64,000 nucleotides of DNA. Origin: Clytia hemisphaerica. Lineage: Eukaryota > Cnidaria > Hydrozoa > Leptothecata > Clytiidae. This document shows positions 18,283 through 44,750 of the stretch, in pieces. Within the stretch, counting starts at the first letter, position 1; every line of letters starts with the position of its first letter. The stretch lies in NCBI GenBank assembly GCA_902728285.1, contig CACVBU010000349.1:706384-770383 (forward strand), read 5' to 3'. The position numbers and the translations under genes were made by a program. The notes under the pieces were generated by a model. The model saw nothing but the letters and a program-made list of their open reading frames with translations, had not been told where the DNA came from and did not search any database.

Positions 18283-19358
18283 TCTATATACTAAAAGTCT
18301 AATGTGAGTGAGCCGTGGGGGAGCCATTATGGATTTTTGAGATGGGGGTTCGAGAGTTACGTGACCGATTGTTTTGTTGGATGGGTGGGTATTTGGCACC
18401 GATATATACAAACATATATCGGTGGTATTTGGTTGAAAACGAAAGCGAAAGTGGTCAGGGGAAGAGTGTGAAAATTAGCGTTTTTGTGAAGAAGTCGTTG
18501 CAGTGCAAATCTTTCGCAAATTTAAAAAACCACTTTCCCGTGGAAATAATTGACGTTTTTTGGTTTTCTGGGACCCTTGGGGCATAAGCTACCCGTTGAC
18601 CGCAAAAATTTCAAAATTCGCGAATTGACCGTTGACAACATTAGGGGTAAAGGGACCCAATGACGTCACAGATTTGGGAAAAAACTTCAAAATGCGTTAT
18701 CTCGAGTTTGAAAAGGAGTTGGGAGGTCGGTGACCCCTCATTGGATCGAGAATTTTATGGAGCATAAGATGGGATGGGTTATGAGGCTTGAGTGTGACTT
18801 TGAAATTTGGCTGAATTTTTAGGCGTTTTCAGTTGATGACGTCATCAAAACAGGAAAAATGCGATATCTCAAGATTGGATAGGAGTTAGGAAATGGCTAA
18901 CCCCTCATTTGATCGGAAATTTTACGTGGAATTAGCTGGGAGGGGTTAGAGTGGGTATATAGAGACTTTCAAAAATAAATATATTCAAATTGTGGCTTTA
19001 TGGGTCCGATGACGTCATCAAAAACGGAAAAATACAATATCTTGAGTTTGAGTAGGATTTAAGCAATGGTTGACCCCTCATTGGATCGGAAATCATCAAG
19101 AGAATCTTTTGGATAAATGACAAATTGATTTCAGTGAAGTGAAAAAATTATTACCCTTTCGATGACGTCACTTAGGGCCAAAATGACGTCACCAAACATG
19201 AAATATGCTGTTTTCCGAGTTTTGATCAGTGAAAAGTGGTAATATTTCGTTCTTTGGGCTTACAATATACAATTTTTACCCCCCCCCCACCATCCAAAGG
19301 GCTTTTGATGTGTTCAACAACACTCTACTCGGCGGGTGCGACGCCGGGTGACGGCTAG
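18283..19358 (+). mobile_element. Helitron unit 1
   Basis: This is a near full-length unit of 1076 bp with both ends. A short palindromic insertion (GATATATACAAACATATATC, near 18400-18425) interrupts its 5' part. The body holds three to four diverged blocks of about 170 bp, each with a TGACGTCA-type palindrome, a CGATATCTCGAG-like word and GACCCCTCATTGGATCG. Confidence 0.85.
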
Positions 19359-21085
19359 TCTATATTACTAAACGTAGAATGTGAGTGAGCCGTGAGGGGG
19401 CCCTTATGGATTTTTGAGATGGGGGTTCGAGAGTTACGTGACCGATTTTTTGGTTGGATAGTTGGGTGGGTGGTTAAAAACGAAAGCGAAAGTGGTTAGG
19501 GGAAGAGTGTGGAAATTAGCGTTTTTGTGAAGAAGTCGTTGCAGTGCAAATCTTTCGCAAATTTAAAAACCCACTTTCCCGTGGAAATAATTGACGTTTT
19601 TGGGTTTTTTGGGACCCTTGAGGCACAAGGTACCCGTTGACCGCAAAAATTTCAAAATTCGCGAATTGACCGTTGACAACATTAGGGGTAAAGGGACTCA
19701 ATGACGTCACAGATTTGGGAAAAACTTCAAAATGCGATATCTCGAGTTTGAAAAGGAGTTGGGAGGTCGGTGACCCCTCATTGGATCGAGAATTTTATGG
19801 GGAATAAGATGGGAGGGTTTATATGGCTTGAGTGCGACTTTGAAATTTGGCTGAATTTTTAGGCGTTTTCAGTTGATGACGTCATCAAAACAGGAAAAAT
19901 GCGATATCTCGAGATTGGATAGGTGTTGGGAGGTCGTTGACCCCTCATTGGATCGGAAATTTAAAGGAGAATAAGTTGGCAGGGGTAAAAGTGGGTATAT
20001 AGAAACTTTCAAAAGTAAATGTATTCAAATTGAGGGCATTTTGAGTCCGATGACGTCATCAAAACCTAAAAGATACAATATCTCGAGTTTGATAAGGATT
20101 TAAGCAATGGATGACCCCTCGGTCTTAAATTGCAATTGTTTGTACTTTGGGATTAATTCAGTCTCGCACCCGCCGAGGATTAGATAAGCTGAACGCATCC
20201 TAAGCCCTTTAGATAGTAAAGGAGAAACCATAGACTGAATTAATCCCTAAGAACGAAAAATTGCCACTTGAGACCGATCAAAACTCGAGAAATCGCAAAT
20301 ATAATGTTTGGTGACGTCATTTGGGCCCTAAATGACGTCTTCCAAAGGGTAATAAACTTTTCACTTCACTGAAATCAATTTGTCATTTACCCAAAAGATT
20401 GTCTCGATGATTTCTGATCCAATGAGGGGTCAACCATTGCTTAAATCCTTCTCAAACTCCAGATATTGTATTTGTCAGGTTTTGATGATGTCATCGGACC
20501 CAAAATGCCTCAATTTGAATATATTTATTTTCGAAAGTTTCTATATACCCACTCTTACCCCTCCCAACTTGTTCTCCATTAAATTTCCGATCAAATGAGG
20601 GGTCAACGACCTCCCAACCCCTATCCAATATCGAGATATCGCATTTTTCCTGTTTTGATGACGTCATCAACTGAAAACGCCTAAAAATTCAGCCAAATTT
20701 CAAAGTCATTTTCAAGCCTTATAACCCCTCCCATCTTATTCGCCATAAAATTCTCAATCCAATGAGGGGTCACCGACCTTCCAACTCCTTTTCAAACTCG
20801 AGATATCGCATTTTGAAGTTTTTCCCAAATCTGTGACGTCAATGGGTCCCTTTACCCCTAATGTTGTCAACGGTCAATTCGCGAATTTTGAAATTTTTGC
20901 GGTCAACGGGTAGCTTATGCCCCAAGGGTCCCAAAAAAACATTAAAACCTGCGTTTTTTTAAAGAAGGGACGTGTTTGTACTTTGGGATTAATTCAGTCT
21001 ATAGTTTCCCCTTTACTATCCAAAGGGCTTATGCCGCGTTCAGCTTATCTACTCCTCGGCGGGTGCGACGCCGGGTGACGGCTAG
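19359..21085 (+). mobile_element. Helitron unit 2, with inverted internal segment
   Basis: The unit is 1727 bp. It starts normally, but from about 20120 to 20945 the body is present as its reverse complement (for example GACGTCATCAACTGAAAACG and CCAATGAGGGGTCA). A normal 3' end follows, of the variant with TTCAGCTTATCTACTCCTCGG. A short piece containing TTGGGATTAATTCAGTCT occurs on both sides of the inversion. Confidence 0.8.
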
Positions 21086-21377
21086 TCTATATTACTAAAC
21101 GTAGAATGTGAGTGAGCCGTGAGGGGGCCATTATGGATTTTTGAGATGGGGTTCGCGAGTTACGTGACCGAATTCGGTTGGTTGGATGGATGGGTGGTTG
21201 AAAACGAAAGCGAAAGTGGTCAGGGGAAGAGTGTGAAAATTAGCGTTTTTTTAAAGAAGGGACGTGTTTGTACTTTGGGATTAATTCAGTCTATAGTTTC
21301 CCCTTTACTATCCAAAGGGCTTATGCCGCGTTCAGCTTATCTACTCCTCGGCGGGTGCGACGCCGGGTGACGGCTAG
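21086..21377 (+). mobile_element. Helitron unit 3, 292-bp deletion derivative
   Basis: It has intact 5' and 3' ends but almost no body. The 5' 160 bp is joined, at GCGTTTTTTTAAAGAAGGGACG, to the same 3' segment used by unit 2. It is the shortest unit that keeps both termini. Confidence 0.85.
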
Positions 21378-23289
21378 TCTATATTACTAAACGTAGAATG
21401 TGAGTGAGCCGTGAGGGGGCCATTATGGATTTTTGAGATGGGGGTTCGAGAGTTACGTGACCGATTTTTTGGTTGGATGGTTGGGTGGGTGGTTTAAAAC
21501 GAAAGCGAAAGTGGTCAGGGGAAGAGTGTGGAAATTAGCGTTTTTGTGAAGAGGTCGTTGCAGTGCAAATCTTTCGCAAATTTAAAAACCCACTTTCCCG
21601 TGGAAATAATTGACGTTTTTTGGTTTTTTGGGACCCTTGGGGCATAAGCTACCCGTTGACCGCAAAAATTCCGAAATTCGCGAATCGACCGTTAACAACA
21701 TTAGGGGTAAAGGGACCCAATGACGTCAGAGATTTGGGAAAAACTTCAAAATGCGATATCTCGAGTTTGAAAAGGAGTTGGAAGGTCGGTGACCCCTCAT
21801 TGGATCGATTATTTTATAGAGAATAAGATGGGAGGGGTTATAAGGCTTGAAAGTGACTTTTAAACTTGGCTGAAATTTTAGGCGTTTTCAGTTGATGACG
21901 TCATCAAAACATGAAAAATGCGATATCTCGAGACTGGAAAGGGGTTGGGAAGTCGTTGACCCCTCATTGGATCGGAAATTTAATGAAGAATAAGTTAGGA
22001 GGGGTAAGAGTTGGTATATACAGACTTTCGAAAATAAAAAATATATTCAAACTGAGGCATTTTGGGTCCGATGACGTCATCAAAACCTGAAAAATCTAAT
22101 ATCTGGAGTTTGAGAAGGATTCAAGCAATGATTGACCCCTCATTGGATCGGAAATCATCAAGAGAATATTTTGGTTAGATGACAAATTGATTTCAGTGAA
22201 GCAAAAAATATATTACTTTTTGATGACGTCATTTAGAGCCCCACCGAGTAGAGTGTTGTTGAACACATCAAAAGCCCTTTGGATGGCAAGGGACGTGTCC
22301 AAATTCACAGCAAAAATTTCCACATTTTAAACGCACGTCTGCGCACGTGGAAGAAAATGTCCAAATTCAAAGCAAAAATTTCCATATTTTAAACGCAAGT
22401 GGAAGAAAGTGTCCAAATTCACAGCAAAAATTTCCACGTTTTACACGCACAGCGGGAAGAAAATGTCCAAATTCACAGCCAAAAGTTTTTTCCACGTTTT
22501 AAACGCATGCGGAAGAAAATGTTGACCAATGCGATAATGATATATTGTATCATGTCGGTCGATTATCTTTGAATATTAAATCTAAACGTGCATTTTAAAC
22601 GTGAAAAACCTTTTGGTTGTGAATTTGGACGTTTAGATTCTAAAAAGTGAGTCGGTCGGTTTAAAAAGTGAGTCGGTGGGTCTAAAAAGTGAGTCAGTCG
22701 GTTTAAAAAGTGAGTCGGTCGGTCTAATAAGTGAGTCGGTCGGTCTAATAAGTGAGTCGGTTGGTCTAAAAAGTGAGTCGGTCGGTCTAATAAGTGAGTC
22801 GGCCGGTCTAAAAAGTGAGTCGGTCGGTCTATAAAGTGAGTCGGTCGGTCTATAAAGTGAGTCGGTCGGTCTATAAAGTGAGTCGGTCGGTTTAAAAAGT
22901 GAGTCGGTCGGTTTAAAAAGTGAGTCGGTCGGTTTAAAAAGTGAGTCGGTCGGTTTAAAAAGTGAGTCGGTCGGTTTAAAAAGTGAGTCGGTCGGTCTAA
23001 TAAGTGAGTCAGTCAGTCTAATAAGTGAGTCGGTCGGTCTAATAAGTGAGTCGGTCGGTCTAAATAGTGAGTCGTTCGGTCTAATAAGTGAGTCGGTTGG
23101 TCGGTCTAAAAAGTGAGTCGGCCGGTCTAAAAAGTGAGTCGGTCGGTCTAAAAAGTGAGTCGGTTGGTCGGTCTACAAAGTGAGGCGGTCGGTCGGTCTA
23201 CAAAGTGAGGCGGTCGGTCGGTCAGTCTACAAAGTGAGGCGGTTTAATTTTTCAAATATACCTAGCATGATCGTTACAAACACGGCTAG
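21378..23289 (+). mobile_element. Helitron unit 4, carrying an inverted minisatellite module
   Basis: The 5' body is normal to about 22240. From 22243 the sequence is the reverse complement of a Helitron 3' end (GAGTAGAGTGTTGTTGAAC), then inverted 52-54-bp repeats (22300-22520), then the 21-bp minisatellite in the opposite orientation to units 7, 12 and 14. It ends with CGGCTAG after GATCGTTACAAACA, without the usual hairpin. Confidence 0.75.
22636..23245 (+). repeat. 21-bp minisatellite, GTGAGTCGGTCGGTCTAAAAA type
   Basis: About 29 units of GTGAGTCGGTCGGTCTAAAAA and close variants (TAATAAG, TATAAAG, TTTAAAA in place of CTAAAAA). The last units change to ACAAAGTGAGGCGGTCGGTCG. It is the reverse complement of the arrays in units 7, 12 and 14. 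Confidence 0.9.
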
Positions 23290-24331
23290 TCTATATTACT
23301 AAACGTAGAATGTGAGTGAGCCGTGAGGGGGCCATTATAGATTTTTGAGATGGGGGTTCGAGAGTTAGGTGACCGATTTTTTGGTTGGATGGTTGGGTGG
23401 GTGGTTGAAAACGAAAGCGAAAGTGGTCAGGGGAAGAGAGTGAAAATTAGCGTTTTTGTAAGAAGTCGTTGCAGTGCAAATCTTTCGCAAATTTAAAAAC
23501 CCACTTTCCCGTGGAAATAATTGACGTTTTTTGGTTTTTTGGAACCCTTGGGGCATAAGCTACCAGTTCACCGCAAAAATTCCAAAATTCGCGAATTGAC
23601 CGTTGAGAACATTAGGGGTAAAGGGACCCAATGACGTCACAGATTTGGGAAAAACTTCAAATTGCGATATCTCGAGTTTGAAAAGGAGTTGGGAGGTCGG
23701 TGACCCCTCATTGGATCGATAATTTTATGGAGAATAAGATGGGAGGGTTTATATGGCTTGAGTGCGACTTTGAAATTCGGCTGAATTTTTAGGCGTTTTC
23801 AGTTGATGACGTCATCAAAACCGGAAAAATGCGATATCTCGAGATTGGAAAGGAGTTAGGAGATGGTTGACCCCTCATCGGATCGGAAATTTAATGGAGA
23901 ATAAGTTGGCAGGGGTAAAAGTGGGTATATAGAAACTTTCAAAAGTAAATGTATTCAAATTGGGGCCATTTTGAGTCAGATGACGTCATCAAAACCTAAA
24001 AAATACAATATCTCGAATTTGATAAGGATTTAAGCAATGATTGACCCCTCATTGGATCGGAAATCATCAAAAGAATCTTTTTGGTAAATGTCAAATTGAT
24101 TTCAGTGAAGTGATAAATTTATTACCTTTTCGATAACGTCATTTAGGGCGCAATTGACGTCACCAAACATAAAATATGCGATTTTTCAAACTTCGATCAG
24201 TGATAAGTGGTAGTATTTCGTTCTTTGGGCTTAGAATTCAACCTTATTACCCTTCCCCCCCACCATCCAAAGGGCTTTTGATGTGTTCAACAACACTCTA
24301 CTCGGCGGGTGCGACGCCGGGTGACGGCTAG
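23290..24331 (+). mobile_element. Helitron unit 5
   Basis: A full-length unit of 1042 bp, nearly identical by eye to units 8 and 13 over most of its length, including private variants such as GCTACCAGTTCACCGC and GTTGAGAACATTAGG. Confidence 0.85.
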
Positions 24332-25371
24332 TCTATATACTAAAAGTCTAATTTTCTATGAGTCGTGGGGGAGCCATTATGGATTTTTGGGATGGGGGTT
24401 CGAGAGTTACGTGACCGATTTTTTGGTTGGGTGGTTGGATGGGTGGTTGAAAACGAAAGCAAAAGTGGTCAGGGGAAGAGTGTGGAAATTAGCGTTTTAT
24501 TAAAGAAGTCGTTGCAGTGCAAATCTTTCGCAAATTTAAAAACCCACTTTCCCGTGGAAATAATTGACGTTTTTTGGTTTTTTGGGACCCTTGGGGCATA
24601 AGCTACCCGTTGACCGCAAAAATTTCGAAATTCACGAATTGACCGTTGACAACATTAGGGGTAAAGGGATCCAATGACGTCACAGATTTGGGAAAAACTT
24701 CAAAATGCGATATCTCGAGTTTGAAAAGGAGTTGGGAGGTCGGTGACCCCTCATTGGATCGAGAATTTTATGGAGAATAAGATGGGAGGGTTTATATGGC
24801 TTGAGTGTGACCTTAAAATTTGGCTGAATTTTTAGGCATTTTCAGTTCATGACGTCATCAAAACAGGAAATATGCGATATCTCGAGATTGGAAAGGGGTT
24901 GGGAGGTCGTTGACCCCTCATTGGATCGTAAATTTAATGGAGAATAAGCTGGGAGGGTAGGAGTTGGTATATAGAGACTTTCAAAAATAAATATATTCAA
25001 TTTGTGTGGCTTTATGGGTCCGATGACGTCATCAAAAACGGAAAAATACAATATCTTGAGTTTGAGTAGGATTTAAGCAATGGTTGACCCCTCATTGGAT
25101 CGGAAATCATCAAGAGAATCTTTTGGATAAATGACAAATTGATTTCAGTGAAGTGAAAAGTTTATTACCCTTTCGTTGACGTCACTTAGGGCCAAAATGA
25201 CGTCACCAAACATGAAATATGCTGTTTTCCGAGTTTTGATCAGTGAAAAGTGGTAATATTTCGTTCTTTGGGCTTACAATATACAATTTTTACCCTCCCC
25301 CACCATCCAAAGGGCTTTTGATGTGTTCAACAACACTCTACTCGGCGGGTGCGACGCCGGGTGACGGCTAG
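24332..25371 (+). mobile_element. Helitron unit 6
   Basis: A full-length unit of 1040 bp with the 5' variant AAAAGTCTAATTTTCTATGAG. Its 3' portion (near 25225-25371) matches the 3' portion of unit 8, suggesting recombination between neighbours. Confidence 0.85.
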
Positions 25372-26341
25372 TCTATATACTAAAAGTCTAATTTTCTATG
25401 AGCCGTGGGGTGGCCATTTTGGATTTTTGAGATGGGGGTTCGAGAGTTACGTGACCGACTTTTTGGTTGGATGGTTGGTTGGGTGGTTGAAAACGAAAGC
25501 GAAAGTGGTCAAGGGAAGAGTGTGAAAATTAGCGTTTTTTAAAGAAGTCGTTGCAGTGCAAATCTTTTGCAAATTTAAAAACCCACTTTCCCGTGGAAAT
25601 AATTGACGTTTTTGGGGTTTTTGGGACCCTTGGGGCACAAGCTACCCGATGACCGCAAAAATTTCAAAATTCGCGAATTGACCGTTGACAACATTAGGGG
25701 TAAAGGGACCCAATGACGTCACAGGTTTGGGAAAAACTTGAAAATGAGATATCTCGAGTTTGAAAAGGAGTTGAAAGGTCGTTGACCCCTCATTGGATCG
25801 AGAATTTTATGGAGAATAAGATGGGAGGTGTTATGAGGCTTGAGTGTGATTTTAAAATTTGGCTGAATTTTTAGGCGTTTTCAGTTGATGACGTCATTAA
25901 AATAAAAAGGAAAAATGCAAAATCTCAAGATTGGAAAGGAGTTGGAAGGTCATTGACCCCTCATTGGATCGGGAATTTAATGGAGAATAATTTGGGAGGG
26001 GTAAAAGAGGGTATATAGAAACTTTCAAAAATGAATATATTCAATTGGGGTATTTTTGGTCCGATGACGTCATAAAAACCTAAAAAATACAATATCTCGA
26101 GAAAGATTAAAGCAATGGTTGACCCCTCATTGGATCGGAAATCATCGAGAGAATCTTTTAAGTCAACGAAGAAATACTTTCAGTGAAGTAAAAAGTTTAT
26201 TACCCTTTCGATGACGTCACTTATGGCCCAAATGACGTCACAAAACATGAAATTTGCAATATTTTTTGTTTCAATTATTTAAAATGGTATCCAAGTAATT
26301 TGGTAGTCTTTGTAGGCGGCAATCACAAATGTGTTCGTTTC

Positions 26342-26882
26342 AAACGACCGACCGACCGACCGACCGACCGACCGACTGACCGACCGACCGACCGACCGAC
26401 CGGCTGACTCACTTTTTAGATCAACCGACCGCCTCATTTTGTAGATCGACCGACCGCCTCACTTTGTAGACCGACCAACCGACCGCCTCACTTTGTAGAC
26501 CGACCGACCGACCGCCTCATTTTGTAGCCCTTCCGACCGCCTCATTTTGTAGCCCTACCGACCGCCTCATTTTGTAGCCCTACCGACCGCCTCATTTTGT
26601 AGACGGACCAACAGCCTCATTTTGTAGACCGACCAACCGACCGCCTCAGTTTGTAGACCGACAAACCGCCTCATTTTGTAGACCGACCGACCGCCTCATT
26701 TTGTAGACCGTCCGACCGCCTCATTTTGTAGACCAACCGACCGCCTCATTTTGTAGACTGACTCACTTTTTAGACTGATCGACCGTCTGACTCACTTGAC
26801 CGACATACTCACTTGACCGACCGACTCACTTGACCGCCCGACCGACTCACTTTTTAGACTGATCGACCGACTCACTTTTTAG
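26342..26882 (-). repeat. 21-22-bp minisatellite in unit 7
   Basis: GACCGACCGCCTCATTTTGTAG and GACCGACTCACTTTTTAG-type units, preceded by an almost pure run of GACC near 26346-26400. A 15-bp perfect inverted repeat (GCGGCAATCACAAAT at 26316, complement at 26909-26923) brackets the whole array. Confidence 0.85.
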
Positions 26883-26900
26883 ACCCAACAAGGACGCAAA

Positions 26901-27001
26901 ATGAAGATATTTGTGATTGCCGCATTATACGTTTCTCTTCGATACTTTACTTTGGTTGCGGGCTGTGCTGCGCAAGAAGAAGCAGCAACAATGAATATTT
27001 G
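26901..27001 (+). pseudogene. captured exon fragment with signal-peptide-like N-terminus
   Basis: An ATG at 26901 opens 33 codons, beginning MKIFVIAALYVSLRYFTLVA and then GCAAQEEAATMNI, ending at a good donor (GTACGT at 27002). A short basic N-region, a hydrophobic core and small residues before an acidic stretch resemble a secretory signal peptide exon. It lies inside a Helitron and has no recognisable partner exon, so I call it a captured gene fragment. The first bases of the exon belong to a 15-bp inverted repeat with 26316-26330, which is a reason for caution. Confidence 0.4.
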
Positions 27002-28060
27002 GTACGTACAATATTGTAATCATTTTTATTATGTTGTTGTAGATAGGAAAAGGTTATAGTTTTATTGACACCATTATATGATAAAATGAATCATTCTAAT
27101 TTCATTCAGATTTGTACACATTAAATTTATCACTAGCACCTCTTCAATTAACACTAAACCTCATTATAAAAATATTGACATTATCCTATCTTCCATTTCT
27201 TTGGGTTCCTTTATAGTATTGAGCGGATGTTATTTTCATTTTATACCATACCAGTTTTTTGTCCTCAATAACTTCATGTTGTCTGTGTAGTAAATGGTTT
27301 TGGCCTTCGAGCTTAGCTTCTTGCTTTTAAAGTATTCAGTTGTTAATCATTATATGTCTATATAATATAAAAAGTAAAATGGGTAATAGGGAAGGAAAAT
27401 AGGAAAAAAACTTTTTCTAATCTGTGACACATTTTTGTTCCTTGTGTTTTGTTTATATCGGGAATCCGCCATTTTTCTTTAAATCCGTTCACATAGCAAC
27501 GTGATAGACCGTATATTTTATAGCCCGGGCTTTTACGGAAGAGAGCTAAGAAACTTAACAAGGCAATATCTCGAGATTGGAAAGGAGTTAAGAGATGGTT
27601 GACCCCTCATTGGATCGGGAATTTAATAGAGAATAAGTTAAGAAAGGTAAGAGTGGGTATAAAGAGACTTTCGAAAATAAATATATTCGGGCATCTTTGG
27701 CCCGATGACGTCATCAGAACCTAAAAAATAGAATATCTAAAGTTTGAGAAGGATTTAAGCAATGGTTGACCCCTCATATTGTATCGGAAATCATCGAGAG
27801 AATCTTTCGGTAAATGATAAATTGATTTCAGTCAAGCAAAATATTAATTACCCTTTCAATGACGTCATTTAGGACCCAAATGACGTCACAAAACATTAAA
27901 TTTACGATTTTTCGATTTTTGATTGGTCTGCTTGAGTGACAATTTTTCGTTCTTTGGGAATAAATCAGTCCATAATATTCCCTTTACTTACTATCCAAAG
28001 GGCTTATGATGCGTTCAGCTTATCTACTCCTCGGCGGGTGCGACGCCGGGTGACGGCTAG

Positions 28061-29100
28061 TCTATATTACTAAACGTAGAATGTGAGTGAGCCGTGAGGG
28101 GGCCATTATGGATTTTTGAGATGGGGGTTCGAGAGTTAGGTGACCGATTTTTTGGTTGGATGGTTGGGTGGGTGGTTGAAAACGAAAGCGAAAGTGGTCA
28201 GGGGAAGAGAGTGAAAATTAGCGTTTTTGTAAGAAGTCGTTGCAGTGCAAATCTTTCGCAAATTTAAAAACCCACTTTCCCGTGGAAATAATTGACGTTT
28301 TTTGGTTTTTTGGAACCCTTGGGGCATAAGCTACCAGTTCACCGCAAAAATTCCAAAATTCGCGAATTGACCGTTGAGAACATTAGGGGTAAAGGGACCC
28401 AATGACGTCACAGATTTGGGAAAAACTTCAAATTGCGATATCTCGAGTTTGAAAAGGAGTTGGGAGGTCGGTGACCCCTCATTGGATCGATAATTTTATG
28501 GAGAATAAGATGGGAGGGTTTATATGGCTTGAGTGCGACTTTGAAATTCGGCTGAATTTTAGGCGTTTTTCAGTTGATGACGTCATCAAAACCGGAAAAA
28601 ATGCGATATCTCGAGATTGGAAAGGAGTTAGGAGATGGTTGACCCCTCATCGGATCGGAAATTTAATGGAGAATAAGTTGGCAGGGGTAAAAGTGGGTAT
28701 ATAGAAACTTTCAAAAGTAAATGTATTCAAATTGGGGCCATTTTGAGTCAGATGACGTCATCAAAACCTAAAAAATACAATATCTCGAATTTGATAAGGA
28801 TTTAAGCAATGATTGACCCCTCATTGGATCGGAAATCATCAAATGTATCTTTTTGGTAAATGTCAAATTGATTTCAGTGAAGTGATAAATTTATTACCTT
28901 TTCGATAACGTCATTTAGGGCGCAATTGACGTCACCAAACATAAAATATGCGATTTTTCAAACTTCGATCAGTGAAAAGTGGTAATATTTCGTTCTTTGG
29001 GCTTACAATATACAATTTTTACCCTCCCCCACCATCCAAAGGGCTTTTGATGTGTTCAACAACACTCTACTCGGCGGGTGCGACGCCGGGTGACGGCTAG
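28061..29100 (+). mobile_element. Helitron unit 8
   Basis: 1040 bp. The 5' nine-tenths matches units 5 and 13 almost base for base. The last 130 bp matches unit 6 instead (GTAATATTTCGTTCTTTGGG with CTTACAATATAC), so it is a mosaic. Confidence 0.85.
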
Positions 29101-33173: not shown

Positions 33174-33222
33174 TCTATATACTAAAAGTCTAATGTGAGT
33201 GAGCCGTGGGGGGGCCATTATG

Positions 33223-33685: not shown

Positions 33686-34127
33686 TCACTTTGTAGACCG
33701 ACCGACCGCCTCACTTTGTAGACCGACCGACCGCCTCACTTTGTAGACCGACCGACCGCCTCACTTTGTAGACCGACCGACTCACTTTTTAGACCGACCG
33801 ACTCACTTTTTAGACCAACCGACTCACTTTTTAGACCGACCGACTCACTTTTTAGACCGGCCGACTCACTTTTTAGACCGGCCGACTCACTTATTATACC
33901 GGCTGACTCACTTTTTAGACCGACCGACTCACTTATTAGACCGACCGACTCACTTATTAGACCGACCGACTCACTTTTTAAACCGACCGACTCACTTTTT
34001 ACACCGACCGACTCACTTTTTAAACCGACCGACTCACTTTTTAAACCAACCAACTCACTTTATAGACCGACCGACTCACTTTATAGACCGACCGACTCAC
34101 TTTTTAAACCGACCGACTCACTTTTTA
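33680..34127 (-). repeat. 21-bp minisatellite, unit 12
   Basis: About 20 units of GACCGACCGACTCACTTTTTA type, preceded by four GACCGACCGCCTCACTTTGTA units. Because the unit is 21 bp, frames stay open and give a heptapeptide repeat (VGLKSES) that is an artefact of the period. Confidence 0.9.
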
Positions 34128-34270
34128 GAATCTAAACGTCCAAATTCACAACCAAAAGGTTTTTCACGTTTAAAATGCACGTTTAGATTTAATATTCAAA
34201 GATAATCGACCGACATGATACAATATATCATTATCGGTCGACATTTTCTTCCACATGCGTTTAAAACGTG

Positions 34271-34826
34271 GTTAAACACAAGTGGTCGAAAGGGGGACTA
34301 GGCAGGAAGGCACACAGTGTGATCTACATATGGTATTTTCAGTTCTTGAAATGAAGACAATGACATGGCAAATATGTACAGGAATAAAAACTAGAATAAA
34401 ATAAATGAATACACAGATACGCGTAAAGAAAACACAATACAAACACATATAGTTATAAAACAGCAAAAGTGACAAAATGACAAAAAACAGTAAACAGTAA
34501 ACAGTAAATAGTACGTGTAAACAATATTGAGTATATGGCTGAAAATTACAAAACAGGAGTAATAGTACTAAAAGGCAGGTGTAAATAAACAAGGCTTCAA
34601 AATAAAAAGAAATTGCTAAAAAAGGAAGCTCCCTAGATGCTGGGGTGGGTGGAGGAGCAAAAATACAGCAGTCAGCACTAAGGTAAGAAATGAAGAACTG
34701 AAAAAGGGCCATGTGAAGAAACTGAGGCCTTATATAGACATGAGAGTGAGGCTGAACCAAGAGTCCGGATAAACCAAAACAAACCAAATGCATCTAAACT
34801 CTGATATACAAACATATATCAGAAAC
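34271..34826 (-). other. unclassified 0.55-kb insertion with core-promoter-like end
   Basis: Absent from the matching place in unit 14. On the minus strand, CTATATAAGGCCTCAG near 34740-34725 looks like a TATA box with a start region. The rest is T-rich. A 173-codon minus-strand ORF here is almost entirely hydrophobic low-complexity and I do not accept it as a gene. It could be a captured promoter or a solo LTR; no clear TG...CA ends or target duplication were seen. Confidence 0.3.
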
Positions 34827-35090
34827 AAAAAACTTTTGGCTGTGAATTTGGACATTTTCTTCCCGCTGTGCGTGTAAAACGTGGAAATTTTTGCTGTGAA
34901 TTTGGACTCTTTCTTCCACTTGCGTTTAAAACATGGAAATTTTTGCTTTGAATTTGGACATTTTCTTCCACGTGCGTTTAAAATGTGGAAATTTTTGCTG
35001 TGAATTTGGACACGTCCCTTGCCATCCAAAGGGCTTTTGATGTGTTCAACAACACTCTACTCGGCGGGTGCGACGCCGGGTGACGGCTAG

Positions 35091-36134
35091 TCTATATTAC
35101 TAAACGTAGAATGTGAGTGAGCCGTGAGGGGGCCATTATAGATTTTTGAGATGGGGGTTCGAGAGTTACGTGACCGATTTTTTGGTTGGATGGTTGGGTG
35201 GGTGGTTGAAAACGAAAGCGAAAGTGGTCAGGGGAAGAGAGTGAAAATTAGCGTTTTTGTAAGAAGTCGTTGCAGTGCAAATCTTTCGCAAATTTAAAAA
35301 CCCACTTTCCCGTGGAAATAATTGACGTTTTTTGGTTTTTTGGGACCCTTGGGGCATAAGCTACCAGTTCACCGCAAAAATTCCAAAATTCGCGAATTGA
35401 CCGTTGAGAACATTAGGGGTAAAGGGACCCAATGACGTCACAGATTTGGGAAAAACTTCAAATTGCGATATCTCGAGTTTGAAAAGGAGTTGGGAGGTCG
35501 GTGACCCCTCATTGGATCGATAATTTTATGGAGAATAAGATGGGAGGGTTTATATGGCTTGAGTGCGACTTTGAAATTCGGCTGAATTTTTAGGCGTTTT
35601 CAGTTGATGACGTCATCAAAACCGGAAAAATGCGATATCTCGAGATTGGAAAGGAGTTAGGAGATGGTTGACCCCTCATCGGATCGGAAATTTAATGGAG
35701 AATAAGTTGGCAGGGGTAAAAGTGGGTATATAGAAACTTTCAAAAGTAAATGTATTCAAATTGGGGCCATTTTGAGTCAGATGACGTCATCAAAACCTAA
35801 AAAATACAATATCTCGAATTTGATAAGGATTTAAGCAATGATTGACCCCTCATTGGATCGGAAATCATCAAAAGAATCTTTTTGGTAAATGTCAAATTGA
35901 TTTCAGTGAAGTGATAAATTTATTACCTTTTCGATAACGTCATTTAGGGCGCAATTGACGTCACCAAACATAAAATATGCGATTTTTCAAACTTCGATCA
36001 GTGATAAGTGGTAGTATTTCGTTCTTTGGGCTTAGAATTCAACCTTATTACCCTTCCCCCCCCCACCATCCAAAGGGCTTTTGATGTGTTCAACAACACT
36101 CTACTCGGCGGGTGCGACGCCGGGTGACGGCTAG
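35091..36134 (+). mobile_element. Helitron unit 13
   Basis: A full-length unit of 1044 bp, near-identical to unit 5 throughout, including the 3' poly-C variation before ACCATCC. Confidence 0.85.
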
Positions 36135-36141
36135 TCTATAT

Positions 36142-36527
36142 CACAGGCAGTAAGGACCTTTCTCGCAATTCTATTTCATAATACTGCGCATGCGTAATTT
36201 TCAACCGGTAGTGGATATTTAATGGCTAGAACCAAGTCAAATAATCAGGGAGGGGTGGACTCACTTTTTCGGTCGGGGTTGTGGACGGCCGAATCCATTT
36301 TTTAGATGTGACGTTTTTTAGTGACGTATTGTGACGTTCTTTAGTGACGTATTTGTCGCTTATTGGGTCACTACCAGTTAGGGTCAGGGTTGGACTCGAG
36401 AGTCACAACTGAGTGCCCTGGACCCATTTAGAGTCACTTTAGGGTTAATTGGACCCACTGACAAAATTGAAAATCTTCGTTTTTGTAAGATTTTAGATTG
36501 CTGCGAATAAGGTCCTTTCTTCCCCTC
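36142..36527. mobile_element. 386-bp TIR element with ATAT target duplication
   Basis: It splits the Helitron 5' end TCTATATACTAAAAG: TCTATAT lies on the left and ATATACTAAAAG on the right, so ATAT is duplicated. The ends CACAGGCAGTAAGGACCTTT and (complement) GAGGGGAAGAAAGGACCTTA share an imperfect inverted repeat including AAGGACCTT and TCGCA. There is no ORF of note. Confidence 0.65.
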
Positions 36528-36574
36528 ATATACTAAAAGTCTAATGTGAGTGAGCCGTGGGGGGGCCATTATGG

Positions 36575-37018
36575 ATTTTTTTTCCAAGTTTCTTTTTAAA
36601 TCGAGCTCCGAGCGGGAAAACAGTAGAGTTTTTTTTTTTGAGGCGGAGTACGTTTCTTTTTAGACACGTCATCGGAAAACATGCCTACGGCTCCTTGCCG
36701 ATCGGGAAACGTCGCCCGGTTCGGAAGCGTATTTTTGATCGGACCATACTGCTTTCTAACAGTCAAAATAAAGATGGCGGCAAAAAAAACGACTGGTTGC
36801 TACTGCTCTTTTGCTCTTTTTCTTTGGGTTAATTTATGCTTTAATGAGTTGAATTGGATCATGATTTTTGTGTGATTGTTACAAGAAATGGACGATGATG
36901 AAGTTTATTGTTAATCTTTCCTGGATTTGATGCTTTGTTTGGTTTGGCATGAGAGGTGCAATCTCTTAGGACATTTTAATATCAACTTTGATCATGCTAG
37001 GTATATTTGAAAAATTAA
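36575..37018 (+). other. captured promoter/start-codon module, copy 3
   Basis: AAGATGGCGGC lies at 36771-36781 with the same upstream GGCGGAGTACG, GATCGGGAAACGTCGCCCGG and GGAAGCGTATTTTTGATCGG as copy 2. The A-run after the ATG differs again in length. It leads directly into the minisatellite. Confidence 0.55.
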
Positions 37019-37130
37019 ACCGCCTCACTTTGTAGACTGACCGACCGACCGCCTCACTTTGTAGACCGACCGACTCACTTTTTAGACCGGCCGACTCACT
37101 TTTTAGACCGACCAACCGACTCACTTATTA

Positions 37131-38753
37131 GGACAATCTCAAATCAATGTCGCCTAAGAAAAAGTTAATTTTTTTGAGGAAAAAGTGGAAAATTTACATA
37201 ATTGGCCATATAATCTTAATTTTTTATCTAAAAAAGTTAAAATTTTGAGTGTTGGTCATAATTGATGGCTTATACCCAAAAATGAAAAAAAAACTTGAAA
37301 AAGGTTTGTTATTTGAGGTTAATATGACAATTTATAGACTTTTGTTAACCTCAAAATATAGAGACGCTTATTGAATTATTGGGGAAAAAATTATTAGGGA
37401 GTCATCAAAAAGGCTTCAAATATCAAGCTTGTTTAAAAAAGGTTAGAGATTTCCCACAAGAAAGGTGCAATCCATGAGGTTAAAAAAATGGTAACAAGTA
37501 ACCTCACATTCTTAACCATATCTTCTGCTAGCATTTGTATTAAGTTATGGGACAAAAGTAAAATGATACTAGAAGCTTAGATCAATAGGGTTTTTATAAA
37601 ATTGACAATCTTTGCTCTAACGTAGGGTTAAAAATTGAGGTTAAAATTAGAACTCTATGTTAAGGAATGTGAGAAATTTGTTTCTCTAATTGACCTAAAT
37701 AGTTCTATTCTATTAAAGCTACAGGAACAAAATTACTTTTTAAAAGTTTTCATAAAGTAACTAAGCTAAAAATATATGAAATAGACCAAAAAGGTTCTTA
37801 AAACGAGGTTAAACAATCTGAAAAAGTAGGATGTTTTCGCTTATACATTCAAACTTAAACAACTGAACGAAAAATGTTTAAGCTATACTACGATAAAAAG
37901 TTAACCTCAAAGATTTTTAATTCAGACTTAATTAAGACTCAAGCTTTACTTTTAAGATCAGTATTGATATCAAAAACAGATTTATAAGCCATTAAAGTAT
38001 ACAACAAAGAATTAAAAAACCCTATAAGCCCAATTCACAAATAACCTCAATTTTGATACCCAAACTAAGATATTAACCTCATTTTTTCCACCTTACCTTG
38101 TTCCTCAACCATTGAATAATGGATCCCACTATTTTTATCACACAATTTTCCCTTTTTATGAGGTTATCTGAAAGCTTAAAATCAACCCCTTTCTCAGGTA
38201 CTTGTGTCTCTCAAGTTAATATACGAGTTAACCTCACTTTTGATACCAAAGTATAATTTTTCATGTTTAGTTGTTTTTGATAATAGGCTACTGTTTGTCT
38301 GATATCCAAAATTAGACTGAAATATCATTGTTAACCTCACAATTAGGGTGTTTTTGTGAAATAACCTCAAATTTTACACCCTACTTGAAATGTTAACCTC
38401 ATTTTTTCTAGCCTGCCTTGTTGCCCAATCATTAAATAGTAAAACCCAATCATTATTTTTACTTTAACCTCACATTTCATACCAATTTTGGTCTATCTTT
38501 AAGGACCATTAGGTTAACCTCAGTGCAAGTTAACCTCATATTTTTAACCCTACTTTGACCAAGAATATCTCTTTAAATTCAACACTTAACCTCTATAATG
38601 TATATATCATTGTGAACCTGAATAAATTTTGAGTTAGCATGTAAAGTAGCAAATAAAAATAAGTTAACCTCATTTATTTATCCTTTGTTAAAGTCAAAAA
38701 AGTTCTTTTGAAAAAGTTAGGCGATTTTTGGGGGTTTTGACTTGAGATGGTCC
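37131..38753. mobile_element. 1623-bp TIR element with ATTA target duplication
   Basis: The ends GGACAATCTCAAATCAA and TTGACTTGAGATGGTCC are inverted repeats, followed inward by TCGCCTAA and its complement. ATTA flanks both sides (37127-37130 and 38754-38757), and removing the element restores a minisatellite unit. There is no ORF above noise. The word TTAACCTCA or its complement TGAGGTTAA (with partial variants) occurs about 20 times, mostly TGAGGTTAA-type in the left part and TTAACCTCA-type in the right part. A 4-bp AT-rich duplication is compatible with several cut-and-paste superfamilies; I do not assign one. Confidence 0.8.
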
Positions 38754-39200
38754 ATTAGACCGAACGACTCACTATTTAGACCGACCGACTCACTTATTAG
38801 ACCGACCGACTCACTTATTAGACCGACTGACTCACTTATTAGACCGACTGACTCACTTTTTAAACCGACCGACTCACTTTTTAAACCGACCGACTCACTT
38901 TTTAAACCGACCGACTCACTTTTTAAACCGACCGACTCACCTTTTAAACCGACCGACTCACTTTATAGACCGACCGACTCACTTTATAGACCGACCGACT
39001 CACTTTATAGACCGACCGACTCACTTTTTAGACCGGCCGACTCACTTATTAGACCGACCGACTCACTTTTTAGACCAACCGACTCACTTATTAGACCGAC
39101 CGACTCACTTATTAGACCGACCGACTCACTTTTTAAACCGACTGACTCACTTTTTAGACCGACCGACTCACTTTTTAAACCGACCGACTCACTTTTTAGA
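38754..39200 (-). repeat. 21-bp minisatellite, unit 14
   Basis: About 21 units of GACCGACCGACTCACTTTTTA type. The plus-strand reading frame stays open for 154 codons as repeats of PTDSLF(K/R), because the unit is a multiple of three. It continues the array at 37019-37130 that the 1623-bp element split. Confidence 0.9.
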
Positions 39201-39621
39201 ATCTAAACGTCCAAATTCACAACCAAAAGGTTTTTCACGTTTAAAATGCACGTTTAGATTTAATATTCAAAGATAATCGACCGACATGATACAATATATC
39301 ATTATCGCATTGGTCAACATTTTCTTCCACATGCGTTTAAAACGTGGAAAAAACTTTTGGCTGTGAATTTGGACATTTTCTTCCCGCTGTGCGTGTAAAA
39401 CGTGGAAATTTTTGCTGTGAATTTGGACACTTTCTTCCACTTGCGTTTAAAATATGGAAATTTTTGCTTTGAATTTGGACATTTTCTTCCACGTGCGCAG
39501 ACGTGCGTTTAAAATGTGGAAATTTTTGCTGTGAATTTGGACACGTCCCTTGCCATCCAAAGGGCTTTTGATGTGTTCAACAACACTCTACTCGGCGGGT
39601 GCGACGCCGGGTGACGGCTAG

Positions 39622-41166
39622 TCTATATTACTAAACGTAGAATTCTCTATGAGCCGTGGGGGAGCCATTATGGATTGTTGAGATGGGGGTTCGAGAGTTA
39701 CGTGACCGATTGTGTGTTTGGGTGGGTGGTTGAAAACGAAAGCGAAAGTGGTCAAGGGAAGAGCGTGAAAATTAGCGTTTTTTTTAAAGAAGTCGTTGCA
39801 GTGCAAATCTTTCGCAAATTTAAAAACCCACTTTCCCGTGGAAATAATTCTGCCGTTTTAGAGCCAAAGGAGGTATGTAACAATTTCTGAATATTTTGGA
39901 TTAGGAATAAATCAAGAAAAACGTGTCAGAAGGATCAATTTTGTCCATTTAGTACCAATTTTTACACTAAATATAGAGAATCTAGCAAAGAATCGATTTC
40001 CATAAAATCTATTCAGATCTTATTTAAAGTATTTTGATTAAATATATTTTTTGTTCAGAAATGTGTTACTTACATCTTTTTAAGCAAAATTTTGGAAAAT
40101 CTTTGTTACTTACAGCTTTTTATTTAAACAGATTTTGTAACTTACCTCCAATTTTTCACTTTCAAAACATTTTTTCATCATTTTAAATGAGAAATTTATG
40201 AATTTTTGTAACATACCTCTTTTGGCAAGTCTGAAATAGGCATTTTCAATGAAAATTAGTAACACCATCTGATAGAGCAGGTCAAAAAACCATGATTTTT
40301 GAAAAAAAATATTTTTTGAAAATTTGTAACTTACCTCCTTTGGCTCTGAAATGGCAGAATTGACGTTTTTGGGTTTTTTGGGACCCTTGGGGCACAAGCT
40401 ACCCGTTGACCGCAAAAATTTCAAAATTCGCGAATTGACCGTTGACAACATTAGGGGTAAAGGGACCCAATGACGTCACAGATTTGGGAAAAACTTCAAA
40501 ATGCGATATCTCGAGTTTGAAAAGGAGTTGGGAGGTTGGTGACCCCTCATTGGATCGAGAATTTTATGGAGAATAAGATGGGAGGGTTTATATGGCTTGA
40601 GTGTGACTTTAAAATTTGGCTGAATTTTTAGGCGTTTTCAGTTGATGACGTCATCAAAACAGGAATAATGCGATATCTCGAGATTGGAAAGGAGTTGGGA
40701 GATGGTTGACCCCTCATTGGATCGGAAATTTAATGTAGAATAAGGTGGGAGGGGTAAGAGTGGGTATATAGAAACATTAAAAAATAAATTTATTCAAATT
40801 GAGGCATTTTGGGTCCGATGACGTGATGAAAACCTGAACAATACAATATTTCGAGTTTGAGAAGGATTTAAGCAATGGATGACCCCTCATTGGATCGGAA
40901 ATCATCGAGAGAATATTCTGGGTAAATGATAAATTGATTTCAGTGTAGTGAAAAGTTTATTACCCTCTCGATGACGTCATTTAGGCCCCAAATGACGTCA
41001 CAAAACATTAAATATGCGATTTCTCGAGCTTCAATCAGTAATAAGTGGTAATATTTCGTTCTTTGGGCTTAGAATTCAAGCTTATTACCCTCCCCCACCA
41101 TCCAAAGGGCTTTTGATGTGTTCAACAACACTCTACTCGGCGGGTGCGACGCCGGGTGACGGCTAG
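39622..41166 (+). mobile_element. Helitron unit 15
   Basis: 1545 bp: a full-length unit interrupted at AAATAATT by a 508-bp TIR element. Otherwise typical. Confidence 0.85.
39850..40357. mobile_element. 508-bp TIR element with AATT target duplication
   Basis: The ends CTGCCGTTTTAGAGCCAAAG and CTTTGGCTCTGAAATGGCAG are inverted repeats of about 30 bp. AATT is duplicated (39846-39849 and 40358-40361); the uninterrupted sequence GAAATAATTGACG is seen in the other units. GTAACTTAC-type words recur inside. Confidence 0.8.
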
Positions 41167-42212
41167 TCTATATACTAAAAGTCTAATTCTCTATGAGCCG
41201 CGGGGGAGCCATTATGGATTTTTGAGATGGAGGTTCGAGAGTTACGTGACCGATTTTTTTGGTTGGTTGCTTGGTTGGATGGGTGGTTGAAAACGAAAGC
41301 GAAAGTGGTCAGGGGAAGAGTGTGAAAATTAGCGTTTTTTTAAGAAGTCGTTGCAGTGCAAATCTTTCGCAAATTTAAAAACCCACTTTCCCGTGGAAAT
41401 AATTGACGTTTTTTGGTTTTTTGGGACCCTTGGGGCATAAGCTACCCGTTGACCGCAAAAATTCCGAAATTCGCGAATTGACCGTTGACAACATTAGGGG
41501 TAAAGGGAGCCAATGACGTCACAGATTTGGGAAAAACTTCAAAATGCGATATCTCGAGTTTGAAAAGGAGTTGGGAGGTCGGTGACCCCTCATTGGATCG
41601 AGAATTTTATGGAGAATAATATGGGAGGGGTTATGAGGCTTAAGTGTGACTTTGAAATTTGGCTGAATTTTTAGGCGTTTTCAGTTGATGACGTCATCAA
41701 AACAGGAAAAATGCGATATCTCGAGACCGGAGAGGGGTTGGGAAGTCGTTGACCCCTCATTGGATCAGAAATTTTATGGAGAATAAGTTGGGAGGGTCTA
41801 AGAGTGGGTATATAGAAACTTTCGAAATTAAAAATATTCAAATTGAGGCTTTTTGGGTCCGATGACGTCATCAAAACCTTAAAAATACAATATCTCGAGT
41901 TTGATAAGGATTTAAGCAATGGTTGACCCCTCATTGGATCGGAAATCATCAAGAGAATTTTTTTAGTCAATGAAGAAATACTTTCAGTGGAGTGAAAAGT
42001 TTATTACCCTTTCGATGACGTCATTTAGGTCCCAAATGACGTCACAAAACATTAAATCTTTCAACATTTTTAGTTTTCAACCATTTAAAGAGGTAATTTT
42101 TCGTTGTTTGGGCTTACAAATCAGATCTTTTTATCCTCCCCAACATCCAAAGGGCTTATGATGCGTTCAGCGTATCTACTCCTCGGCGGGTGCGACGCCG
42201 GGTGACGGCTAG
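41167..42212 (+). mobile_element. Helitron unit 16
   Basis: A full-length unit of 1046 bp with the variant 3' segment (TTATGATGCGTTCAGCGTATC) also seen in units 2, 3 and 7. Confidence 0.85.
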
Positions 42213-42417
42213 TCTATATACTAAAAGTCTAATTCTCTATGAGCCGTGGGGGAGCCATTATGGATTTTTGAGATGGGGGTTCGAGAGTTACGTGACCGAT
42301 TTTGGTTGGTTGTTTGGTTGGATGGGTGGTTGAAAACGAAACCGAAAGTGGTCAGGGGAAGAGTGTGAAAATTAGCGTTTTTTAAAGAAGTCGTTGCAGT
42401 GCAAATCTTTCGCAAAT

Positions 42418-43274
42418 TCTCAACTTCAGTTGAGTTAGAATCTGACAATGTGTGTGTGTGTGTCTGTCTGTGTGTCTGTGTGTGTGTATGTCCCAAAACT
42501 TTGTGGCAGCCTGGAGACTTCAAAAATTGTTTGATTTGGCTGAAATTTGGCACACTTGTTCCTTGGGTGAATATCTGGGGGTGTTTTTTTCATTTTTCAA
42601 AAATTTTGATTTTTGGGGCCTGGGACGAGTTTTTCGCCAAAACGAGGCTAAAACTTTGGGGCAGCCTGGAGACTTCAAAAATTGTTCGATTTGGCTGAAA
42701 TTTGGCACACTTGTTCCTTGGGTGAATATCTGGGGGTGTTTTTTTCATTTTTCAAAAATTTTGATTTTTGGGGCCTGGGACGAGTTTTTCGCCAAAACGA
42801 GGCTAAAACTTTGGGGCAGCCTGGAGACTTCAAAAATTGTTCGATTTGGCTGAAATTTTGCACACTTGTTCCTTGGGTGAATATCTGGGGGTGTTTTTTT
42901 TCATTTTTTGAAAATTTTGATTTTTGGGGCCTGGGGACGAGTTTTTCGCCAAAACGAGGCTAAAACCTTAGGGCAGCCTGGAGACTTCAAAAATTGTTTG
43001 ATTTGGCTGAAATTCTGCACAATTGTTCCTTGGGTGAATATCTGGGTGTGGTTTTTGCATTTTTCAAAAATTTTGATTTTTGGGGCATGGGGACGAGTTT
43101 TTTGCCAAAACGAGGCTAAAGCTTTGGAGCAGCCTACAGGCCTCCTAAATGGTCGGATTTGGTTGAAATTTGGCACACTTGTTCATTGGGTGAATATCTT
43201 GGGGTCTACAATTGGGCCTATGAATAATTTGAAGCCACTGAAGTTGAGCCCAGTGCGTTGCGCACGTTCGACTA
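42418..43274 (+). mobile_element. Helentron/HINE-like non-autonomous element
   Basis: It has 12-bp subterminal inverted repeats CTCAACTTCAGT (42419-42430) and ACTGAAGTTGAG (43237-43248), a TG microsatellite near 42450-42490, about 4.7 copies of a 155-157-bp tandem repeat, and a short 3' hairpin GTGCG-TTG-CGCAC (43253-43265) near the end. It sits between T residues with no target duplication. That layout (subTIRs, microsatellite, central tandem repeats, 3' hairpin, T/T site) is the known plan of HINE/DINE-1-type elements. Confidence 0.75.
42490..43215 (+). repeat. 155-157-bp tandem repeat inside the Helentron-like element
   Basis: GCAGCCTGGAGACTTC-type words begin at 42506, 42661, 42816, 42973 and (diverged) 43129. 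The unit contains GGCTGAAATTTGGCACAC and GAATATCTGGGGGTG. Several overlapping ORFs of 60 to 133 codons here are by-products of the repeat. Confidence 0.9.
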
Positions 43275-44118
43275 TTTAAAAAACCACTTTCCCGTGGAAA
43301 TAATTGACGTTTTTTGGTTTTTTGGGACCCTTGGGGCATAAGCTACCCGTTGACCGCAAAAATTCCGAAATTCGCGAATTGACCGTTGACAACATTAGGG
43401 GTAAAGGGACCCAATGACGTCACAGATTTGTGAAAAACTTCAAAATGCGATATCTCGAGTTTGAAAAGGAGTTGGGAGGTCGGTGACCCCTCATTGGATC
43501 GAGAATTTTATGGAGAATAAGATGGGAGGGTTTATATGGCTTGAGTGTCACTTTAAAATTTGGCTGAATTTTTAGGCGTTTTCAGTTGATGACGTCATCA
43601 AAGCAGGGAAAATGCTATATCTCGAGATTGGATAGGAGCTGGGAAGTCGTTGACCCCTCATTGGATCGGAAATTTAATGAAGAATAAGTTGGGAGGGGTA
43701 AGAGTAGCTATATAGAAACTTTCAAAATTAGAAATAGTCAAATTGAGGCTTTTTCGGTCCGATGACGTCATTAAAAACGGAAAAATATAATATCTCGAGT
43801 TTGAGAACGATTTAAGCAATGATTGACCCCTCATTGGATCGGAAATCATCAAGAGAATATTTTGGTTAAATGACAAATTGATTTCAGTGAAGTAAAAAGT
43901 TGATTACCCTTTCGATGACGTCACTTAGGGCCAAAATGACGTCACCAAACATAAAATATGCGATTTTTCAAGCTTCGATTATTGATAAATGGTAATATTT
44001 CGTTTTTTCGGCTTACAATATACAAATTAGATCTTTTTATACTCCCCCACCATCCTAAGGGCTTTTGATGTGTTCAACAACACTCTACTCGGCGGGTGCG
44101 ACGCCGGGTGACGGCTAG

Positions 44119-44750
44119 TCTATATACTAAAAAGCTAATTTTCTATGAGCCGTGGGGAAGCCATTATGGATTTTTGAGATGGGGGTTCGAGAATTACGTG
44201 ACCGATTTTTTGGTTGGATGGTTGGGTGGGTGGTTGAAAACGAAAGCGAAAGTGGTCAGGGGAAGAGTGTGGAAATTAGCGTTTTTGTGAAGAAGTCGTT
44301 GCAGTGCAAATTTTTCGCAAATTTAAAAACCCACTTTCCCGTGGAAATGATTGACGTTTTTTGGTTTTTTGGGACCCTTGGGGCACAAGGTACCCGTTGA
44401 TCGCAAAAATTCTGAAATTCGCGAATTGACCGTTGACAACATTAGGGGTAAAGGGAACCAATGACGTCACAGATTTGGGAAAATTTTCAAAATGCGATAT
44501 CTCGAGTTTGAAAAGGAGTTGGGAGGTTGGTGACCCCTCATTGGATCGAGAATTTTATGTAGAATGAGATGGGATGGGTTATGAGGCTTGAGTGTGACTT
44601 TAAAATTTGGCTGAATTTTTAGGTGTTTTCAGTTGATGACGTCATCAAAACAGAAAAAACCTTATTACCCTCCCCCCCCCACCATCCAAAGGGCTTTTGA
44701 TATGTTCAACAACACTCTACTCGGCGGGTGCGACGCCGGGTGACGGCTAG
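44119..44750 (+). mobile_element. Helitron unit 18, last and internally deleted
   Basis: 632 bp. The 5' half is typical. At about 44655 it jumps to the 3' end (CTTATTACCCTCCCC...). The final CTAG is followed directly by host T44751 and the TRAF intron. Confidence 0.85.

Follow-up and report, generated by a model that had tools for sequence, protein, structure and literature searches.

We find that an intron of a TRAF-like gene of Clytia hemisphaerica holds 18 Helitrons that stand head to tail with nothing between them. They lie in a window of 64,000 nt (G000:C248:706384-770383; the window is the whole stretch of DNA analysed). The array probably arose mainly through diverse copies of one canonical Helitron family that inserted independently, each arriving exactly at the head of a resident element and guided there by a short motif. 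Members of this family insert exactly, and in one direction, in front of sequences that mostly read T-N-CTA, their own heads included. The array, the empty version of its site, a head-to-tail bias throughout the genome and exact joins at the heads of a second Helitron family, here called P, are all directly observed, and the relationships among units favour independent arrivals.

An array of 18 abutting Helitrons

The array occupies positions 18283-44750 (26,468 bp), and its units are connected by 17 CTAG|TC joints, the first base of CTAG lying from 19355 to 44115, with zero bases between units. All 18 units begin with TC and all 18 end with CTAG, in agreement with the CTRR terminus of canonical Helitron1-type elements; the longer tail ...GCGACGCCGGGTGACGGCTAG is present in 17 of the 18, the exception being unit 4 (21378-23289), which ends in CGGCTAG. 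The initial annotation had described 18 TC...CTAG units in direct CTAG|TC contact and had identified them as head-to-tail Helitrons, and both descriptions are borne out, the second by these ends together with a family member, described below, that codes for a Rep-helicase (RepHel). Unit lengths range from 292 to 3487 bp, with about half of the units near 1040 bp, and the interiors are rearranged. Most units diverge from one another by several to 15%, also in structure; units 5, 8 and 13 are alike at 98-99.6% and units 7 and 9 at 99.7% over 918 bp. The features of the window are as follows.

18282, +, left host base A of the single A/T target; empty version at C421
18283..19358, +, unit 1; 99.6% over 956 bp to C248a_07, a unit of another array
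19359..21085, +, unit 2; second half repeats a typical unit body in inverted orientation
21086..21377, +, unit 3; 292 bp, internal deletion
21378..23289, +, unit 4; CGGCTAG end, usual tail absent; bases 863-1708 match unit 14 in reverse complement (99.3%)
23290..24331, +, unit 5; 99.6% to unit 13 and 98.3% to unit 8
24332..25371, +, unit 6
25372..28060, +, unit 7; matches C300_06 at 99.75% over 1209 bp and, in its first 918 bp, unit 9 at 99.7%
28061..29100, +, unit 8
29101..30134, +, unit 9
30135..32144, +, unit 10; head shortened to TCTATGAGCC
32145..33173, +, unit 11
33174..35090, +, unit 12; distinct interior, minisatellites
35091..36134, +, unit 13
36135..39621, +, unit 14; a foreign piece of ~390 bp interrupts the head
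39622..41166, +, unit 15
41167..42212, +, unit 16
42213..44118, +, unit 17; 155-bp tandem repeat at 42495-43205
44119..44750, +, unit 18; touches the right host base
44751, +, right host base T; downstream TGGAAACCCTTTTTAA without the CTA target motif
17792..17944, +, host coding stretch (not the whole exon); TRAF-type zinc-finger match of 22.5 bits (cut-off 27); donor GT at 17945
45179..46352, +, downstream host gene region (not exon limits); acceptor AG ends at 45178; open frame 45660-46352 with a MATH domain (143 bits)

The intron of the TRAF-like gene runs from the GT at 17945 to the AG ending at 45178 (splice sites judged by eye). Without the array its 27,234 bp become 27,234 - 26,468 = 766 bp, and the growth from about 766 bp to about 27 kb that had been claimed for this TRAF gene is thus upheld. 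Tandem repeats lie near the gene at 13638-16612 (124-bp unit, 24 copies), 12598-13144 (177-bp unit, 3 copies) and 59315-60063 (64-bp unit, 12 copies).

Several structural observations concern the units themselves. The last 68-69 bp are common to most units at 98.5-100%, even where interiors are unrelated (units 10, 12 and 14) and bodies are ~10% apart; a minority of units has a second tail type. A hairpin with an 8-bp stem is predicted near the 3′ end, ending 9 nt before it (before GACGGCTAG) at -7.3 kcal/mol, with z -1.3 relative to shuffled sequences (20 of 200 shuffles fold equally well; z -0.5 for the P tail). The inverted stretch of unit 4 covers 846 bp at 99.3% to unit 14, and the inverted copies in unit 2 (19359-21085) and unit 4 each begin 17-22 bp short of the 3′ end, a hint of template switching near the predicted 3′ hairpin. 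The ~390-bp insert in the head of unit 14 (TCT...ATATACTAAAAG, 36135-36530) resembles a small element with imperfect inverted ends, and 21-bp minisatellites of ~20-27 copies lie inside units 4 (22639-23219), 12 (33700-34129) and 14 (38755-39200).

Empty versions of insertion sites

A query joining both window flanks recovered an empty counterpart of the array's site at C421:1758925-1759121, which reads through the junction without an insert as GACTATAA^TGGAAACC, or GACTATAA^TGGAAACCC in longer form. It matches the window at 97.2% over 107 bases on the left and at 96.6% over 1603 bases on the right. Entry of the array into one A/T dinucleotide caused no visible duplication or loss, and the proposal of a single A/T site between A18282 and T44751 is supported by this empty version. 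C421 carries 15 extra bases, placed 8 bases left of the junction, and no similarity was found leftward beyond window position 18168; because the likeness ends there, C421 may not be a plain allele but a paralogue or a rearranged copy. A two-unit array at C780 has an exact empty version (100% over 140 bp) and likewise represents an A/T insertion without target duplication. The insertion sites at C36, C256 and C780 lie in inverted-repeat sequence.

Joints of one polarity throughout the genome

Searches of the genome (417 Mb) yielded 330 exact family tails (195 forward and 135 reverse). Tail-to-head joints, sought with a 19-base pattern slightly different from the tail pattern, numbered 153 (104 + 49), compared with 0 in the reversed control, which excludes chance as an explanation of the joint pattern. 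The 100 joints listed fall in 31 places, counted by hand. The search for further joints that the initial annotation had recommended therefore makes the window array one of many. No tail-to-tail joint with 0-6 bases between the tails was found in the genome search, and the head-to-head search, restricted to the TCTATATA head type, gave one palindromic 16-mer match and 3 per strand in its reversed control. The 18 free heads that do not stand on a P element are preceded by A in 11 cases, by T in 4 and by G in 3. Consequently, the A/T target holds for the window array and fails as a strict rule of the family.

Thirteen regions were fetched in addition to the window, and regions and window together yielded 78 units. 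An autonomous unit with the same head and tail, 10.4 kb long and located in an array, lies at C248:53075-63462 and contains an open frame of 1496 codons. The last 1118 codons match Helitron_like_N (205 bits) and PIF1 (192 bits) in Pfam, the first 377 codons gave no Pfam match, and the motifs PHAHM, YLFKY and GGTGKT (HUH, two-tyrosine and Walker) can be read in the frame. This unit therefore combines the HUH two-tyrosine nuclease and PIF1-like helicase that characterize a RepHel, and its Rep-helicase is intact-looking, judged from the sequence. The genome has at least 150 Helitron_like_N matches (the best 150 of 441 candidates), many of them in long open frames. In a second array (C504:2417265-2434640), a RepHel match at C504:2420339 lies between two joints, and a further autonomous copy is therefore probably inside that array.

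A motif just downstream of the insertion point

Where a tail is not continued by a head, the flank on its right begins with T and mostly has CTA at ~6-9 bases. We compared five forms of this motif and kept ^T-N3..8-CTA[A/T] (T.{3,8}CTA[AT]), which often reads ACTAA for the window's family. It is present at 31 of the 44 unique sites of that family: 10/15 in the first set, 9/11 in the second, 10/12 in the third, which was fetched after the form had been fixed, and 2/6 at the right ends of wholly read arrays. The flank sets include several array ends and not only solo sites; judged by coordinates, array ends make up 9 of the 12 sites of the third set, and 8 of these 9 carry the motif. At sites of family P the motif was found in 15/20 and then in 4/4 (19/24). 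Among host T positions, the background frequency is 4.7% (1143 of 24193); for the remaining T positions of these flanks it is 3-13%. An earlier form, T.{4,10}ACTAA, matched 10/20 discovery flanks and 8/20 in the next set, compared with 0/147 and 0/164 other T positions of the same flanks; for P, it matched 4/20 versus 2/196.

These counts leave out L069 (truncated head), L122 (a head of the family itself, containing an N), L158 (lacking an exact tail), the P-head rows L149, L157 and L161 (treated as joins or P-P), and repeat rows, namely 13 small-piece tails and the C105 array end that precede one repeat (TATAATACTAAAATCCAACTAAAG... and variants) and are possible copies of one event. With only L158 removed, the counts are 13/20, 15/20 and 12/14 for the three sets, 3/7 for array ends, and 15/20 and 5/5 for P. 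Automatic thinning gave 12/23, 9/10, 10/12, 12/17 and 4/4, and was replaced because it also lost a motif-less site. The possibility that the CTA motif is the remnant of decayed downstream heads was rejected by eye, as no further head similarity follows the motif.

The heads of the family, ^TCTATATACTAAA and ^TCTATATTACTAAA, have CTA at offsets 8 and 9, within the range seen at targets, and the 5′ end ^TCTATAT-ACTAAA or ^TCTATATT-ACTAAA fits the motif. Because the family's own 5′ end fits, each insertion would create a new target, and growth would proceed head to tail.

Heads of a second family as probable landing pads

Family P is a second Helitron family of ~810 bp, A^TCTTACTATACTAAATGAG...GGGAACCGTCTAG^T, with 199 heads and 334 tails genome-wide at no more than one mismatch each. 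Units of the window's family adjoin P at TCT^TACTATACTAAA, in the same orientation, at at least nine places (C75, C79, C105, C144, C273, C594 (two), C700 and C768), eight of which were read in sequence and one, C594:891050, is known from adjacent coordinates only. The left flank is ATCT in all six joins read there (C79, C105, C273, C594 (two) and C700), and the cut on P is TCT^TACT, not A^TCT. Among five compared, the units joined to P differ, and the joins are therefore not one composite that moved; for the arrays at C79, C105 and C273 in particular, this possibility was rejected because their units differ though P follows each. P also stands head to tail on P, at C193 (CTAG|TACT) and C105 (CTAG|TCTTACT). 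One copy of the window's family lies reversed inside P, before TCTTCTCTAATC, which indicates that orientation follows the motif.

We place the start of P at TCTTACT because only a TCT start lets P at C36 split the perfect palindrome CAGTTGCAAA^TTTGCAACTG. The left flank ...CACACTTA^ that P and the window's family have in common at C207 and C300 also supports this start, and the alternative start at TACTATAC (as in TCT^TACTATAC) was rejected. At C36, P sits at the exact centre of this palindrome of 20 bp.

Relationships among units

The nearest relative of a unit lies in the same array for 13 of the 78 units, versus 8.4 expected by shuffling (P = 0.09), and is adjacent for 4 of the 78, versus 1.7 expected (P = 0.12). 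These comparisons cover only the 78 units cut, and the truly nearest copies may lie elsewhere. Pairs at least 97% alike over at least 600 bases number 15, of which 10 connect different arrays. Three units that are 98.8-99.5% alike stand on a host site (C218_05), on a P head (C273_05) and on a head of their own family (C31_03); likewise, C248b_01 on a host site and C300_07 on a head of its own family are 99.9% alike. One source has therefore supplied near-identical copies to several types of target: host sites, P heads and its own heads.

Proposed mechanism of array growth and points for and against it

In the mechanism that we propose, the Rep (HUH) nuclease would choose its targets by a short motif, ^T-N3..8-CTA[A/T], that lies immediately downstream of where it cuts. 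Every insertion would leave a fresh target directly in front of itself, in one fixed orientation, so that arrays would grow head to tail. The Rep itself appears to read the motif, the same short sequence occurring in its own left end and in its targets. Since the left base varies (A 11, T 4, G 3) and a joint within an array presents G^T, insertion could take place at any head of an array and not only at the leftmost; young units in mid-array fit such targeting without proving it. The earlier proposal of growth by repeated targeted insertion stands, with its target redefined: insertion at the 3′ end of the previous unit is not favoured, the joins to P identify the head of the resident element as the recurring target, and the cue is a motif common to heads and ordinary targets.

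Several observations weigh against this mechanism. The motif was derived from these same data, and only the third set (10/12) and the second P set (4/4) are independent of the form that was kept. Thirteen of the 44 unique sites miss it, among them the C218 host site, a near miss that reads ACTAG. The founding site of the window array is without the motif, as are 4 of the 6 right ends of wholly read arrays on unique host DNA, the window's included. At C256:609131 (L072, L150), the filled site has T after CTAG and T as its left base, and the four empty copies fetched (L170-L173) read CCCT-G-CCTATT, that is CCCT-G-CCTATTCTAA, with G in place of the T that follows CTAG; the base there may thus not always be host-derived and may come with the element. 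Finally, among the best 39 of 975 candidates in a genome search with unit 5, no full-length match above 93% was found beyond units 8 and 13, which hints at some local amplification. The within-array pairs 5/8/13 and 7/9 may be local in origin.

An unlikely alternative is homologous recombination, in which a circular Helitron intermediate integrates into a resident copy by a single crossover and gives precise direct repeats. CTAG|TC circles are known for Helraiser (PMC4778049; here and below, published work is cited for the portions of its text that were searched), and their integration would explain the polarity, the exact joints and mosaics such as unit 7, with 918 bp like unit 9 and 1209 bp like C300_06. 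Joints within the family remain compatible with it; however, it leaves the CTA motif at unique sites unexplained and also the joins at P heads, where the likeness at the joint amounts to only a few bases. We find it improbable that canonical A^T insertion with no further specificity is sufficient, whereby a host A and the T of TC would recreate A/T at the left edge and growth would extend leftward by chance. The A on the left of the window array agrees with such an order, which is among the two offered for a maize pair (PMC2267711), but AT is palindromic and half of the insertions should then be head-to-head, an arrangement essentially absent for the head type searched. Moreover, the joins to P are cut at TCT^TACT rather than A^TCT, and the left base is not A at 7 of the 18 free heads.

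The initial annotation had also considered rolling-circle concatemers and unequal exchange, neither of which is supported as the main route, because neighbouring units are mostly not the most alike. Insertion of a single multimer copied repeatedly from a circle, an origin proposed for the tandem Helitrons of bats and plants (cited in PMC5876387 and PMC2267711), should leave adjacent units nearly identical. Here units are mostly several to 15% apart and differ in structure, with the nearest relative adjacent in just those 4 of 78 cases, and a concatemer is very improbable. Least probable of all is the expansion of a small seed array by unequal exchange or local duplication. It would account for the within-array likeness of window units 5/8/13 and 7/9 and of C232a_03/07 and C232a_04/05, yet same-array nearest relatives number 13 of 78 versus 8.4 expected by shuffling, and the neighbours of units 5, 8 and 13 differ, so that no multi-unit block was duplicated. 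Independent, motif-guided insertion at resident heads thus remains our preferred explanation.

Comparison with known systems

The HUH transposase of IS608, of the IS200-IS605 group, inserts at a target that resembles its own left cleavage site, through a guide-sequence mechanism. The window's family resembles this system in the likeness of target and left end, a likeness that need not extend to the guide-sequence mechanism, whereas IS608 is prokaryotic and has no helicase.

Among Helitrons, the closest precedent is a head-to-tail pair in maize whose CTAG|TC joint makes G/T and whose units are unlike; consecutive insertion was argued, and one order already proposed there has the second element inserting at the first one's head (PMC2267711). 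The joint and the unlike units recur here, but the maize case is one pair with no motif described, compared to 153 joints and a motif. Perfect head-to-tail joints and arrays of tandem Helitrons are also described in bat and plant centromeres (Pritham and Feschotte 2007; Xiong et al. 2016, cited in PMC5876387). Judging by citing papers and titles, those arrays are read as rolling-circle products, whereas the present units are heterogeneous and have relatives in other arrays. In Metarhizium acridum, three Helitrons are in tandem, with insertion into the 5′ end as one explanation offered, and self-insertions occur in Fusarium (PMC5148889); these elements differ in their non-canonical ends, in a TNAT^A target for two subgroups and in the small number of cases. 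Helraiser and other Myotis Helitrons have TC...CTAG ends, insert at A^T with a preference for an AT-rich 3′ flank and form the CTAG|TC circles considered above, and some bat copies are inserted right beside another Helitron (PMC4778049). Their ends and A^T target are common to the window array, but that text describes no CTA motif and no clustering near donor sites.

For maize, no consensus except A is given for the target flank (PMC2575219), and the wheat target is AT (PMC13286980). A motif common to Helitron head and target was not found in the literature text searched, which excludes figures (insertion-site logos) and subscription papers (Xiong et al. 2016); in that text, none is given for silkworm (PMC3789558), rice Mothra (PMC4683698), poplar (PMC13253262), wheat (PMC13286980) or maize and rice (PMC2575219). 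The published 5′-end search pattern for maize, TC[CT][CA]TA[CT]TA..., allows T-N-CTA, and the rule might therefore be general to canonical Helitrons.

Implications for Helitron target choice

Tandem Helitrons are already known, and the self-targeting explanation looks to be the new part. The searched literature has described canonical Helitron target choice as A^T in AT-rich DNA and has often read tandem copies as rolling-circle products. We see an even chance that, more broadly, canonical Helitrons carry at their 5′ end a copy of the target that they prefer, so that resident elements of their own and other families act as landing pads and arrays become predictable from the target choice of the Rep. 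The intron in the window has expanded from 766 bp to 27 kb, and at the insertion site we see neither loss nor duplication of host bases. If a motif is truly common to head and targets, it would explain such arrays without concatemers, it would provide a DNA code, open to testing, by which an HUH-helicase transposase chooses its targets, and it would present a transposon that directs much of its spread onto its own copies.

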